Below are positions 25,977 through 44,638 of a stretch of 64,000 nucleotides of DNA, piece after piece. The stretch's first letter is position 1. Every line of letters starts with the position of its first letter. The DNA lies in assembly GCA_017552615.1 (NCBI GenBank), contig JAFZPI010000028.1:78248-142247 (forward strand), given 5' to 3'. Source of the stretch: Clostridia bacterium. GTDB lineage: Bacteria > Bacillota > Clostridia > Christensenellales > Aristaeellaceae. The notes beneath the pieces were generated by a model that searched no databases, was not told the DNA's origin, and saw only the letters and a program-made list of their open reading frames with translations. The translations under genes and the position numbers were made by a program.

Positions 25977-26192
25977 TCACCACCCGCCGTTCGCACCGAG
26001 GCTTGGCATACGAGCCAGTTCCATAAAACGCTTGAATTCCTCATCAGTCAGGTAATCCATGATTTTGATGTTATTGACGTCAATGTTGTATTTCTCGGCC
26101 ATCGTCTTCAGGAATTCCCAGGCTTCCTTGGTATCCCCGCCATTGGCGTTTTTCAGTTCTTCCAGATTCAGTTCCATCATGTTGTTTTCCAT
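25977..26192 (-). CDS. Double-glycine leader microprotein C
   Basis: A 71-residue protein whose first 19 residues (M-E-N-N-M-M-E-L-N-L-E-E-L-K-N-A-N-G-G) fit the double-glycine leaders removed by peptidase-containing ABC exporters (E-L-N-x-x-E-L/M, hydrophobic spacing, G-G). The predicted product of 52 residues is helical and charged, with K-E-A-W-E-F, an L-T-D-E-E-F-K-R-F-M motif and no Cys. It resembles product B in order and spacing. AGGAGA precedes the ATG. No exporter, modification enzyme or immunity gene is adjacent. Bacteriocin, signal or surface peptide are all possible. Confidence 0.7.
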   Translation of the reverse strand: MENNMMELNLEELKNANGGDTKEAWEFLKTMAEKYNIDVNNIKIMDYLTDEEFKRFMELARMPSLGANGGW

Positions 26193-26216
26193 TTTCTGAT
26201 TCTCCTGCCCTTCGGC

Positions 26217-26390
26217 TCAATGGTTGAGAAGCCACTGCATGTGCTCGAATTCTTCCGCGGTCACAAGGTTATTGAGCTCACAGCCGCTATTGGTTCCGTA
26301 CTTCTTGCACAGTTCGAAGAAATAAGCCTGTGCTTCCTTCCATGCCCCGCCGTTAGCCTGATTCAGCATTTCCATGTTTAGTTCCTTCAT
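26217..26390 (-). CDS. Double-glycine leader microprotein B
   Basis: A 57-residue protein: leader M-K-E-L-N-M-E-M-L-N-Q-A-N-G-G (15 residues), then a 42-residue product with K-E-A-Q-A-Y-F, two Cys about 11 residues apart (possible disulfide) and L-V-T-A-E-E-F-E-H-M, clearly related to product C. AGGAGG lies 8 bases before the ATG at 26390. The segment ACGCCCACAGGGC before the ribosome site is repeated before gene A, so the genes arose by cassette duplication. Confidence 0.7.
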   Translation of the reverse strand: MKELNMEMLNQANGGAWKEAQAYFFELCKKYGTNSGCELNNLVTAEEFEHMQWLLNH

Positions 26391-26463
26391 TGTCTGATCC
26401 TCCTGCCCTGTGGGCGTAATCGTTATTTCAGAATCCCTGTTGTCAGCACTGATGTCCGAATCA

Positions 26464-26709
26464 TCAGCCGATGTACCGCACATGCTCGTCCGATGTGACC
26501 TCTTTTCCGTACTTGATCACCATCTGGCGCTTGAACTCTTCGATCATCGCTTCGAGCCGGTCCCATTCATCGGCGTATACGCAATCCCATTTGCGCTTCA
26601 TCATGTCCAGATAAGCGGCACGCTCCTCGGGGGTCAGCATCTCAGTCCGGAGGCCACCGGCGGCCTTTTCCATTTCCTTCAGATTCAGTTCCTTCATATT
26701 GTTTTCCAT
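26464..26709 (-). CDS. Double-glycine leader microprotein A
   Basis: An 81-residue protein, first in the tandem set. The leader is M-E-N-N-M-K-E-L-N-L-K-E-M-E-K-A-A-G-G (19 residues), almost the same as in C. The 62-residue product is helical and highly charged, with L-T-P-E-E-R-A-A-Y-L-D-M-M and one Cys. AAAGGAG precedes the ATG at 26709; the longer frame upstream is not supported. I found no convincing -35/-10 pair for the set. Confidence 0.7.
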   Translation of the reverse strand: MENNMKELNLKEMEKAAGGLRTEMLTPEERAAYLDMMKRKWDCVYADEWDRLEAMIEEFKRQMVIKYGKEVTSDEHVRYIG

Positions 26710-26878
26710 TGTTTTAATCTCCTTTTGCCCTGTGGGCGTTTTGTATTGTCTTGGAACACCTGTTGATACGGACGAATTTGGAGGGTGGCAGTGGAAAATG
26801 AAAACTTCGTTACTGTATGCTTCCGTCACAAGAGGATATGGGCTGCTGGGGACAGCGCCCTAATTCATTGCTTTTTTC

Positions 26879-41623: not shown

Positions 41624-42436
41624 TCAGTCTTCTTCCTGCATATTGTAGCTGATTTCATCCAGCTCGGCGTGGACATATTCCGCCCAGCTGTACTGGTTCA
41701 TGTAATCACCCAAGTAGTGATAGCGGGAGGCCTGTTTCTTTTCCAGCCAGTCGTATAGGTCGCACTCGATGCGGTCCGTCGCGATGCCGAGGCTTCCGCG
41801 CTGCTTGACAATGATGCCCGAGAGGTTCAGACGGGTCATGGTATTTTGCAGGTCCTGCCGGAGGTTGCTCAGGTAGGACGCTTTCTTTTCCGGATCACCG
41901 TCGTCTTCCCACAGGGCCGCGATGATCTCGCCGTTGGTGGTCTGGGCGCCCAGGTTGTTCACCAGCAGGGCCACGATCTCCTTGGTGCGGGAATACTTGA
42001 ACGGGACGCTTTTCCCGTCCACAAAGAACTCGAAATTGCCGAACGTTTGGGCAAAGACGCGCTTGTGGCTTTTATCTTCCCGGGAATAGCGCAGGTCCCG
42101 CAGTTCCCGGCGCAGGGCATCCTCTGTGGCGGGCTTGAGCAGGTAGCCGCTGGCGTGGATGGTCAGCGCCTCATAGCCGTGCCTGCGTTGATCGGTCAGG
42201 TAGATCAGGTTGGCCAGGGGGTAGAGATCCCGCAGATAGCGGCCCAGGTCCAGTCCGTTGAGCTCGGGGAGCTCTGTCTCCAGCAGGGCGATGTCGATCT
42301 CGTGTTGCCGGGCGGCAGCCAGGGCTTCGAGGGGATCGAGAAAGGTCATCAGCTCGGCTTCGGGCTCAAGGGCTGCGGCGATCCGGGCGGTCTCCCGCAG
42401 GCTCTGTTCCGAGGCATCCACAGCAAGGATCCTCAT
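41624..42436 (-). CDS. Atypical response regulator, Asp replaced by Glu, SARP-like output
   Basis: A 270-residue regulator. The receiver-like domain (1-120) ends in L-L-K-P-A-T with the conserved Lys (K101), but the phosphorylated Asp is Glu53 (A-L-L-E-T-E-L-P) and the acidic pair at the N-terminus is V-D-A-S. The output domain (about 130-270) is a winged helix of the SARP/BTAD or OmpR-like kind (R-T-K-E-I-V-A-L-L-V-N-N, A-S-Y-L-S-N-L-R-Q-D-L). No histidine kinase lies nearby. I infer a phosphorylation-independent regulator. It overlaps the upstream gene by 4 bases. Confidence 0.85.
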   Translation of the reverse strand: MRILAVDASEQSLRETARIAAALEPEAELMTFLDPLEALAAARQHEIDIALLETELPELNGLDLGRYLRDLYPLANLIYLTDQRRHGYEALTIHASGYLLKPATEDALRRELRDLRYSREDKSHKRVFAQTFGNFEFFVDGKSVPFKYSRTKEIVALLVNNLGAQTTNGEIIAALWEDDGDPEKKASYLSNLRQDLQNTMTRLNLSGIIVKQRGSLGIATDRIECDLYDWLEKKQASRYHYLGDYMNQYSWAEYVHAELDEISYNMQEED

Positions 42437-42927
42437 GCTTCCACCTCCCCGGGACCGACGGTTCGCACTTGCTGCAGGCGGCGCTGGTCGGGCGTCATAT
42501 GCAGGGGATCCATCCCCCCGACGAGCAGCATGTCCCCGCCGTTGACGGCAGCTTCCCGCAGGGGGCCCGCGTTCAGGTCCGCGATGACCAGCGCGGCAAA
42601 CCGGTCATAGTTGTCTTCGTCAATCACCGGGAAATGGTGCTGCATGCGGTACCAGTGGGCGGGGTCAAACCCCATGGAGCCAGTATAAAGCCGATCCGCG
42701 GTGGCTTCGACCTCGTCGGCTCCGGCGGGCTGACCGGGCGCCATGTTCAGTTCGTCGCAGAAGAGCATCGCGTAAGCCCGGAGGATCTGTGTCCGGATGG
42801 TCTCCCGACGGCCGTTTCGTTCTGTGACGGTATCCATGACACGGTAAAAAGTCTCCTGGGCCGCTTCATCCGTGTCAAAACGGATGATGGCTTCGTAAAA
42901 ATCGCGGTTGATCAGCGGATGCGCCAT
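42433..42927 (-). CDS. Hypothetical protein coupled to the atypical regulator
   Basis: A 164-residue soluble protein, helical in its first 90 residues, with H-W-Y-R-M-Q-H-H-F-P and F-A-A-L-V-I-A-D-L-N later. No family recognised. Its stop overlaps the start of the response regulator (ATGA), implying a functional link such as a sensor or partner. GGAGGGGG precedes the ATG at 42927. Confidence 0.68.
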   Translation of the reverse strand: MAHPLINRDFYEAIIRFDTDEAAQETFYRVMDTVTERNGRRETIRTQILRAYAMLFCDELNMAPGQPAGADEVEATADRLYTGSMGFDPAHWYRMQHHFPVIDEDNYDRFAALVIADLNAGPLREAAVNGGDMLLVGGMDPLHMTPDQRRLQQVRTVGPGEVEA

Positions 42928-43025
42928 AGGAAAATTCCCCCTCCCATTGCCCAAATGGTAGCACAAACCGCGTCAAAACACAATGAGCGAAGGATTCAGA
43001 AAAACTTTTGAAAAATCACAAAGAG

Positions 43026-43092
43026 TGTGACACTTCTGTGACGAATCCCATGATATGCTCTATTCGCGGGTGAGGGAAAGGCCCTCCCGCAG
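43026..43092 (+). promoter_or_regulatory. Promoter and leader of the LysM microprotein
   Basis: TGTGAC occurs twice (43026-43031, 43037-43042), followed by an extended -10 TGATATGCT (43051-43059) without a clear -35. The leader can fold GCGG(GT)GAGGG/CCCTCCCGC (43066-43090). Confidence 0.4.
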
Positions 43093-43151: not shown

Positions 43152-43388
43152 ATGACTGAAAACACTGAACTGAATCTCAACGAACTCGACGAAGCTGTTG
43201 GCGGTTACAAGCGCCCAAAGGAAAAGGCCGGCTTCATCATCTATCAGATCCAGAAGGGTGACACCGTGACCCGCATTGCCGAGAAGTTCCAGTTCACAAA
43301 GAAGGACATCCTGGCCTGGAATCCCAAGATCACCAACCCCAGCCTGATCTATGCGGGTGACTATCTGTACATCAAAGAGAAGAAGTAA
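43152..43388 (+). CDS. LysM microprotein with double-glycine leader
   Basis: A 78-residue protein in two parts. Residues 1-18 (T-E-N-T-E-L-N-L-N-E-L-D-E-A-V-G-G) are a double-glycine leader like those of the microproteins at 25977-26709. Residues about 29-75 are one complete LysM domain (Y-Q-I-Q-K-G-D-T-V-T-R-I-A-E-K-F, then L-A-W-N-P-K-I and I-Y-A-G-D-Y-L-Y-I), which binds N-acetylglucosamine polymers such as peptidoglycan. The mature product of about 60 residues would be exported by a peptidase-containing ABC transporter, not Sec, and dock on the wall. GGAGAGGAG precedes the ATG. It stands alone. Confidence 0.82.
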   Translation: MTENTELNLNELDEAVGGYKRPKEKAGFIIYQIQKGDTVTRIAEKFQFTKKDILAWNPKITNPSLIYAGDYLYIKEKK

Positions 43389-43489: not shown

Positions 43490-44638
43490 TTAGTCAAACA
43501 GGAAAGGGAGAATGTAGTAGAAATAGGTGTATAACGCGCTGACCGTATGGGTACCGTCAATCATCATGGAGCAGAAAGTATTCTCATCCAGAAAGAACAT
43601 TTCGTCATATTCCAGTAAGGAAATCATTTGCTTTGTGGAAATATCAAAAGCTTCATCATCCGTACCTGTTGCAACAAACAACATGAAGTCATTCCATCCG
43701 TAACCTTGCAGCATGACAGCGTCATACAGTGCCCGAGCGGACACTTCGCTGTCGAAAATGCCGGATGTATTGCCTTCTCCGTCATCCCAACTGGCTTCAC
43801 TGATGGGCAGGAACCATTTGAAGGCCTGCATCTGCTGAAGGAACACATACCAAGTGGCGACACCGCCCAGGGAGAATCCCGCGATCCCGCGGTGATTTCT
43901 TGACGCGACGATGTCCTCAAGGGACGTGGATGCAGCATAGGTTCTGCACTGCTCTTCGACTTGCGGAATGAGGTCTTCCACCAATTCCCAGGGAAAAGAT
44001 GTGGTCACTTCCACTTGCTTTTCGAGCGGAAGCTGCCGACCGGAACCATCGGCGGGATAGTAGGTTGCGGCGACAATAATCATGGGTTCCATTAGTCTGT
44101 CTTCGATCATATGGTCCAGCAGGTTCTGCAGCTTTGTAGGTTCGTCAGGGCTCAGGTATCCCAAGGGTGAGCCGTTCGAACCGTGCAGGAGGTACAGGAC
44201 ATTGTACGGTTGATCCGACTCGTCATAACCGGCCGGAAAGTAAACCATGACGGATTTCACGGTTTCTTCTGCGGAAGTCCCATCCGTTGTACTCCCGGCT
44301 GTAAAATAATAGATTTTCTCCACGCGTCCCGGGTGTTCCGCCGCTGTCAGATAGCTTTCCGGGACATCGTCAGAGGAAAACTCACTCAACGCAAGCATCG
44401 GAGAATCGGAAAGTTCATCCGTCTCCATATCCGATTCCGTGTCTATTTCATCTTCAACCAGAGACCAATCGACGTCCTTAGGGGAAACGCCATCGATCGG
44501 AGCCGGGAGTTCCGGTGTTTCCGCGTGTGAAATACTGCACGAGAAGCAAATGATCAAGGCACTGCACAAGGCAATCATCTTATGTCTGGTATAGTTTTTC
44601 TTGCATGTTTTCCGGTGCTGGTCGGATGTCTGATTCAT
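43490..44638 (-). CDS. Secreted esterase (EsteraseD/feruloyl-esterase-like)
   Basis: A 382-residue exported alpha/beta hydrolase. Basic N-terminus, signal peptide near 20-40 ending S-H-A-E, an acidic linker (to about 100), then the hydrolase: V-M-V-Y-F-P-A-G-Y, L-Y-L-L-H-G-S, nucleophile elbow G-I-A-G-F-S-L-G-G, and D-G-T-H-T-V for the catalytic His. The family includes feruloyl and acetyl-xylan esterases, which would suit plant fibre use. The gene looks more AT-rich than its neighbours. AAAAGGAGC precedes the ATG. Confidence 0.85.
   Translation of the reverse strand: MNQTSDQHRKTCKKNYTRHKMIALCSALIICFSCSISHAETPELPAPIDGVSPKDVDWSLVEDEIDTESDMETDELSDSPMLALSEFSSDDVPESYLTAAEHPGRVEKIYYFTAGSTTDGTSAEETVKSVMVYFPAGYDESDQPYNVLYLLHGSNGSPLGYLSPDEPTKLQNLLDHMIEDRLMEPMIIVAATYYPADGSGRQLPLEKQVEVTTSFPWELVEDLIPQVEEQCRTYAASTSLEDIVASRNHRGIAGFSLGGVATWYVFLQQMQAFKWFLPISEASWDDGEGNTSGIFDSEVSARALYDAVMLQGYGWNDFMLFVATGTDDEAFDISTKQMISLLEYDEMFFLDENTFCSMMIDGTHTVSALYTYFYYILPFLFD

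Follow-up and report, generated by a model that had tools for sequence, protein, structure and literature searches.

Mining of bacteriocin-type exporters usually aims at antimicrobials. LysM proteins such as SafA and AtlA leave the cell by other routes or carry further domains. In the NHLM/NHLP systems (TIGR03794, TIGR03796 and TIGR03797), precursor genes may be far from the modification and export genes (Haft et al., 2010, PMC2887384). Their leaders are long and nitrile-hydratase- or Nif11-like, with average GG positions of 83 and 70, and modification of the peptides is assumed (PMC2887384). In Synechococcus elongatus, the EbfG1-4/PteB system consists of small GG-motif proteins whose export is aided by a C39 peptidase and which serve a biofilm purpose (PMC4997328). 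The PCAT leader consensus is L(-12)xxxE(-8)L(-7)xxxxG(-2)G(-1) (PMC6959990). In AtlA, a single LysM is enough for peptidoglycan binding, with T13, L14 and I39 being the most important residues (PMC4083421). Papers given by PMC number are cited here and below for the excerpts consulted.

The window (the whole 64,000-nt stretch of DNA that was analysed) encoded a protein in which a GG leader and a LysM domain were combined:

43152..43388, + strand: GG-leader LysM microprotein gene, 78 aa plus stop (ORF list, translation, Pfam, paralogues, relatives)
43152..43205, + strand: 18-aa double-glycine leader MTENTELNLNELDEAVGG (L7 = -12, E11 = -8, L12 = -7, A15 = -4, G17-G18 = -2/-1)
43206..43385, + strand: predicted mature protein, 60 aa, 7.1 kDa, computed pI 9.8, no Cys (putative cleavage after GG)
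43242..43373, + strand: LysM domain, residues 31-74 (Pfam PF01476)

The precursor consisted of MTENTELNLNELDEAVGG (leader) and then YKRPKEKAGFIIYQIQKGDTVTRIAEKFQFTKKDILAWNPKITNPSLIYAGDYLYIKEKK (predicted mature part). The preliminary description of this DNA had claimed a 78-residue protein with a double-glycine leader joined to one intact LysM domain, and the ORF at 43152-43388 (+) and its Pfam match bore this out. The one intact LysM came directly after the 18-aa leader and matched PF01476 at E 1e-11 and 45 bits (cut-off 20.9), over residues 31-74 of the protein and positions 1-42 of the 43-position profile. The leader agreed with the PCAT consensus at L7, E11, L12, G17 and G18 (PMC6959990) and, judged by its sequence, is almost certainly a real PCAT leader. 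Residues -12, -8, -7 and -4 and the GG were the same as in the GG peptides of ComAB/BlpAB/RtgAB (PMC7018657) and PCAT1-CtA (PMC6959990).

By eye, T38, V39 and I66 were the likely counterparts of AtlA T13, L14 and I39, and columns 39 (mostly L) and 66 (I) were at least 90% identical in a set of 33 family members (A2). The LysM structure of SafA (7r1l) aligned with the window protein at E 2.2e-7. The mature protein is predicted with good confidence to bind wall glycan. SafA and AtlA have the LysM family in common with it; the difference is the free-standing single LysM behind a GG leader.

The window LysM gene was solitary, with likely flanking genes at 42433-42966 and 43490-44638 on the opposite strand of the ORF list. 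The earlier statement that no exporter or immunity gene is adjacent held for the window copy, where the ORF list contained no adjoining candidate of either kind, but not for two relatives with adjoining exporters (L118 and L195, see below). The adjacent immunity gene of a class II bacteriocin was thus absent from the ORF list at the window copy. A sigma-70-like promoter at 43027-43054 (9/12) was at shuffle level (one found vs. a mean of 0.7), and no terminator-like site was found for the gene.

Homologues of the leader plus LysM architecture, which the preliminary description had proposed to look for, comprised two paralogues in the window's own genome and 103 ORFs in the fetched loci. In the locus labels, G stands for genome, C for contig and L for fetched locus; G000 is the window's own genome, an assembly of 2.03 Mb in 49 contigs that is 72.8% complete. 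The paralogues, on contigs C46 and C14, were 64% and 65% identical to the window protein over leader and LysM. Among 60 relatives, 18 matched the window protein at E ≤ 0.001, many of these matches being ordinary LysM proteins. Profile matches at E ≤ 1e-6, ordinary LysM proteins included, occurred in 95 of 308 genomes of the same taxonomic family, and leader-spanning members with a short frame occurred in at least 39 of the 308 among the matches listed. This 39-genome set was picked by eye among the matches listed (start ≤10, end ≥80, short frame), partial rows such as that of G204 being omitted; G121, which ranked below those matches, was an additional genome with GG-LysM members. An order-level scan of 396 genomes gave short leader-spanning rows in at least five genomes: G000, G092, G044, G090 and G121. 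G044 belongs to another family of the same order, and the leaders of the G044 and G121 copies were read in their sequences. In a phylum-level scan of 398 genomes, 293 matched at E ≤ 1e-10, and among the rows listed only the own genome had a leader-spanning match in a short frame. The single match in a plasmid record was an Aliivibrio muramidase that aligned with query residues 21-76 only, so that the leader was not covered.

The 103 GG-LysM ORFs (100 distinct) were gathered from the window, L001-L003 and L118-L197. They remained from 113 profile hits after removal of six GG-leader proteins without LysM and four defective entries (one leaderless or decayed, one truncated and two N-masked). All 100 distinct members had GG at the leader end, GG being part of the filter. 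Further upstream, position -12 was hydrophobic in all 100 members; E occupied -13 in 92 and -8 in 87, position -7 was M or L in 98, and position -4 was V, A or I in 99. Leader length had a median of about 22 aa. Median charge was -5 for the leader (acidic) and +6 for the mature part (basic). Cys was absent from the window protein and present in 43 of the 100 mature parts, so disulfides or modification are possible for those members. LysM was matched in all 33 members scanned (A2). Members were 29-64% identical to the window protein, with the leader conserved throughout. Over 104 non-independent pairs, the mature parts had a pooled pN/pS of 0.31 and the leaders one of 0.26, which indicates purifying selection on both. 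On these sequence comparisons the GG-LysM proteins form a real family and are not a chance occurrence.

The highest copy number among the matches listed was 10, in G073, and some copies were in tandem. A leaderless, decayed-looking extra LysM copy lay near an intact GG-LysM gene at L138 9583-9828 (G020:C18). Among the 25 largest neighbour groups of the 103 ORFs, no small partner recurred generally except a 62-aa gene (six loci). A mobile element or toxin-antitoxin cassette was considered and set aside, as these groups held no general recurrent neighbour.

Copy number and neighbourhood also bear on the reading of the protein as a bacteriocin, in which the exported LysM would bind and inhibit competitors at their wall, with immunity encoded elsewhere or intrinsic. 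The leader and exporter are of bacteriocin type, and multiple and tandem copies agree with such a role. At three loci of G020 (L001, L002 and L003), a small membrane protein of 77-80 aa was encoded between a promoter shared by the family (see below) and GG-LysM; it is a possible partner or immunity protein, although its group was limited to these three loci of one genome. Among the 25 neighbour groups the 62-aa gene was otherwise the only general small partner, no catalytic or pore-forming part was recognised in the 78 aa, and the LysM is under purifying selection, all of which count against killing and leave a bacteriocin unlikely. Two points favour a coat or adhesin role over killing: the 25 largest neighbour groups contain no recurrent general immunity partner, and the domain is conserved rather than diversified.

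The preliminary description had called for a C39 exporter elsewhere in the genome and had named the lack of one as grounds for refutation; in the own assembly (72.8% complete) peptidase C39 (PF03412) had no match. TIGR03794 likewise had no match there, and the best TIGR03797 match (319.6 bits) was under the cut-off of 709.4, so that export in the window's own organism is something we infer. The expectation fared better in relatives. C39 was found in 150 of the 308 genomes of the taxonomic family: in 34 of the 39 GG-LysM genomes (among the matches listed) vs. 116 of 269 others (Fisher p 1.1e-7, in a test that, like those following, ignores shared descent and genome size). With G121 added, the counts were 35 of 40 vs. 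115 of 268 (p 5.4e-8, the other GG-LysM genomes being those among the matches listed). With the count restricted to genomes of ≥90% completeness and ≤5% contamination (rounded values), C39 was present in 13 of 13 GG-LysM genomes among the matches listed vs. 45 of 107 (p 3.6e-5). The five GG-LysM genomes without C39 (G000, G213, G101, G015 and G307) were 57 to 87% complete.

At L118 (G190) and L195 (G322), GG-LysM was the next gene behind an NHLM-type C39 exporter, with gaps of 94 and 126 nt. The first ABC protein, with C39, scored 910.9 bits (L118) and 899.8 bits (L195) on TIGR03796 (cut-off 853.3). The second scored 716.6 bits (L118) and, just below the cut-off of 709.4, 686.7 bits (L195) on TIGR03797. 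Short HlyD-like neighbours scored 17.4 (L118) and 35.3 (L195) on TIGR03794, far under its cut-off of 156.2. GG-LysM was about 2.3 kb (L119), 2.2 kb (L120) and 9.1 kb (L121) from the last gene of the exporter. Within the fetched stretches, NHLM exporter genes were at most four genes from GG-LysM only in L118, L119, L120 and L195; a fixed operon with the exporter was rejected on this count.

Like NHLM/NHLP, the system has an exporter above the TIGR03796 cut-off beside GG-LysM (L118 and L195), and dispersed precursor genes are common to both (PMC2887384). Unlike NHLM/NHLP, it has a leader of about 22 aa (median), a LysM cargo and a short HlyD-like neighbour under the TIGR03794 cut-off (PMC2887384). 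TIGR03796 and TIGR03797 genes alongside the cargo gene, as expected of NHLM cargo, were seen for L118 and L195 and were absent at the window copy. Nor did the window protein, with its 18-aa leader, resemble an NHLP/Nif11-type precursor, no such model being present among the 16 NCBIfam families listed. It may work like NHLM cargo, yet without being a member of the NHLP/Nif11-type precursor families. Export of the window protein by an NHLM C39 exporter is very probable given the leader, the exporter adjacency and the C39 co-occurrence, and the earlier proposal that a wall-docking microprotein is exported along a C39 route of bacteriocin type gains support from the same evidence.

An ECF-type promoter, TG(C/A)CA-N15/16-CGTAT(A/C), was found in 61 of the 98 distinct upstream regions of GG-LysM genes; the other 37 were without it. 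Half of the 61 sites were 68-81 nt before the start codon, and the sites included one with an off spacing of 25 and one 227 nt away. In a 7-mer count, CGTATCA was present in 33 and ACTGCCA in 32 of the 98 regions; in ten shuffled sets no 7-mer exceeded 12. A strict pattern, CTGCCA-N15/16-CGTATMWAC, had 42 matches in six genomes selected for their GG-LysM genes (G000 3, G009 11, G073 16, G288 1, G286 4, G020 7), and the reversed pattern had none. G288 has many GG-LysM genes, yet only this one strict match. At 22 of the 30 strict matches fetched (of the 42; counted by eye), a GG-leader ORF was at most 500 nt downstream. The remaining eight preceded either other genes (Sec-type ones, one for a small membrane protein, a sigma pair, or others) or a contig end, or had no clear gene behind them. 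The motif is thus a DNA handle for listing much of a genome's GG-leader cargo.

Both LysM paralogues in the own genome carried the site (scores 26.7 and 28.9). The window LysM gene did not: its best upstream score was -4.5, a value that 68 of 400 random stretches reached. Either the site has been lost from this copy, or the gene is under another control. Elsewhere in the window, the promoter was found as follows, with the genes behind it:

26761..26791, - strand: ECF-type promoter CTGCCACCCTCCAAATTCGTCCGTATCAACA common to the family (score 30.7; sole strong site in the window, next best 4.8)
26464..26709, - strand: GG-leader cargo 1, 81 aa, leader ..ELNLKEMEKAAGG (no Pfam family over cut-off)
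26217..26390, - strand: GG-leader cargo 2, 57 aa, MKELNMEMLNQANGG.. (no Pfam match; scanned stretch two codons longer)
25977..26192, - strand: GG-leader cargo 3, 71 aa, MENNMMELNLEELKNANGG.. (no Pfam family over cut-off)

In window positions 25977-26791 (-), three small GG-leader genes therefore stood in succession behind a strong shared promoter. Further GG cargo was found behind the promoter in the own genome on C9 and C45. The HlyD-like and C39 exporter genes of L038 (G021) came directly after two GG-leader genes of SH3 type (185-457 and 557-862); the first of these two scored 34.5 bits on SH3_3 (cut-off 27), and the second was assigned by reading its sequence. A GG-leader protein behind the promoter in L287 scored 19.1 on SH3_3, under the cut-off. 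That of L268 had no SH3 match, only a Bacteriocin_IIc match over the leader (17 bits, under cut-off), and is called SH3-like solely because it resembles L287. Presumably the SH3 and SH3-like GG-leader proteins of L038, L287 and L268 are wall-related cargo.

Could the LysM protein instead be cytoplasmic, with an incidental Gly-Gly? The own genome (72.8% complete) offered no exporter match and the window copy has no shared promoter, both of which would fit. Against this, the leader was kept across members 29-64% identical to the window protein, a like leader was found on unrelated cargo behind the same promoter, and the exporter adjoins family genes in relatives. Conservation of the leader within the family and its recurrence on unrelated cargo led to rejection of an incidental Gly-Gly, and a cytoplasmic protein is highly improbable.

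In the own genome and in others, an ECF sigma gene paired with a small gene of about 62 aa also lay behind the shared promoter. In the own genome the arrangement was:

L333 (G000:C22) 1800-2539: promoter, 62-aa gene and ECF sigma gene (promoter pattern, Pfam)

The C22 sigma gene matched sigma-70 region 2 at 63.7 bits and region 4 at 49.3 bits. No exporter was found within the 14 kb examined around this pair. Although without C39, the own assembly thus retains the pair of sigma and 62-aa genes found with the exporter in relatives. Promoter and pair were divergent from an NHLM exporter in L293 (G073) and L124 (G105), and in L122 (G286) and L292 (G009) the promoter was before the pair on the same contig as the exporter. 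L297 (G020) and L300 (G288) had pair and exporter with no promoter site found in the stretch, the L297 pair lying at the stretch's very edge. Within the same genus, the exporter of L334 (G006) stood in a row with the 62-aa and sigma genes, with no site found, L336 (G008) had site, 62-aa gene and sigma gene, and L335 (G003) had the pair without a site.

The 62-aa gene was present in 85 of the 308 genomes. C39 was found in 76 of these 85 vs. 74 of the 223 others, and the 62-aa gene was found in 31 of the 39 GG-LysM genomes (among the matches listed) vs. 54 of the 269 others. From this gene arrangement, the ECF sigma factor probably drives the shared promoter. At L212 (G121) 1109-2791, an ECF sigma gene shared a strand and a row with a Sec-type protein gene and two tandem GG-LysM genes, the tandem genes being at most about 1.5 kb from the sigma gene.

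Pfam and NCBIfam gave no named family for the 62-aa protein. A stretch in the 62-aa proteins fitted positions -13 to -3 of the GG-leader profile, from which the GG itself was excluded. Among 21 of these proteins, the score was reached by none of 500 shuffles in 14 and by at most 16 of 500 in five; in the other two it was not outstanding, 276 and 149 of 500 shuffles scoring as high. Ala-Ala was in place of GG in 19 of the 21, and the own-genome protein (C22) carried the Ala-Ala leader-like motif. This motif suggests that the 62-aa protein is an uncut leader mimic. As both binding and cleavage require GG (PMC7018657), the AA form might bind poorly. The motif may instead be a mark of descent from GG cargo or serve sigma binding.

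One extension would be a self-monitoring export regulon, in which the ECF sigma drives the GG cargo while the AA mimic docks uncut and reports exporter or cargo load to the sigma. FlgM and flagellar export are a precedent for such export-coupled feedback. We regard this regulon as speculative and rather doubtful. If it were true, wall-binding microproteins on the surface would be made only as fast as they are exported. With the Ala-Ala leader-like protein encoded beside the sigma gene, coupling of gene control to export can be put to a direct test.

Taken as a whole, the best explanation is that the window gene encodes a secreted, basic, single-LysM wall-docking cargo of an NHLM-type export regulon, with a rough probability of 0.78. 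Once made in the cytosol, the precursor would dock through its N-terminal leader on an NHLM/NHLP-type ABC exporter, at the C39 peptidase. This exporter would cut after Gly-Gly and export the 60-residue basic protein, which would then bind GlcNAc-containing cell-wall glycan of its own or neighbouring cells and act as a small, non-enzymatic wall coat or adhesin-like cargo. Alongside SH3 and other classes, LysM proteins would make up one class of cargo in a dispersed GG-leader regulon of this bacterial family. An ECF sigma, whose gene often adjoins the exporter in relatives, probably drives this regulon.

The role within this explanation is tentative: a coat or adhesin, rather than a bacteriocin or decoy, comes at slightly under even odds. 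As a decoy or shield, the exported LysM would cover the producer's glycan against hydrolases, phages or host lectins. The lone wall-binding domain without an enzyme suits this role. ECF-type regulation, which is common for envelope stress, suits it as well. The closest solved sequence relative of the window protein was fungal Ecp6 (phmmer, E 3.9e-11), which sequesters chitin fragments, but this likeness is at the domain level only. The decoy is improbable, and a wall coat or adhesin is retained as the working role.

The GG leader, the C39 exporter and LysM are each already known separately. Their combination as a large family, the exporter linkage and the shared ECF-type promoter appear new, in so far as the open-licence full text among the best matches listed of longer lists contained no description of a leader plus LysM plus C39-route architecture. 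LysM was not mentioned in the excerpts of PMC2887384, PMC4997328 and PMC13289728, and in that of PMC10100652 it occurred only in an aggregation factor. EbfG1-4/PteB resembles the GG-LysM system in its small GG-motif proteins, C39 peptidase and non-bacteriocin purpose (PMC4997328). It differs in that mature EbfG proteins are without a domain of known function, and the excerpt of PMC4997328 mentions no LysM and describes no ECF-type promoter. PCAT GG peptides are coregulated, leader-recognised cargo, as in the GG-LysM system (PMC7018657, PMC6959990). Pneumococcal cargo consists of pheromones, bacteriocins and rtg peptides under peptide-pheromone control (PMC7018657), whereas the GG-LysM system has a wall-binding domain as cargo and, likely, an ECF-type sigma switch. 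A large GG-leader wall-binding family, in part exporter-adjacent and with an ECF promoter often common to other cargo, suggests that these bacteria also use the bacteriocin-type route for decorating the surface or interacting with the wall.

Two smaller observations concern the surroundings of exporters and other cargo. Near the NHLM exporters of L121, L195, L292, L293, L298, L299 and L301 there were genes that, judged by their sequence, look like those of STAS-domain and anti-sigma-kinase proteins, hinting at additional regulation. At L295 (G000:C45) 438-667, a short GG-leader peptide behind the promoter had a 26-aa core (VDDAPGRRDNKGGLIDLIVDLFKKLF) and looks like a classical bacteriocin-type or signal peptide.
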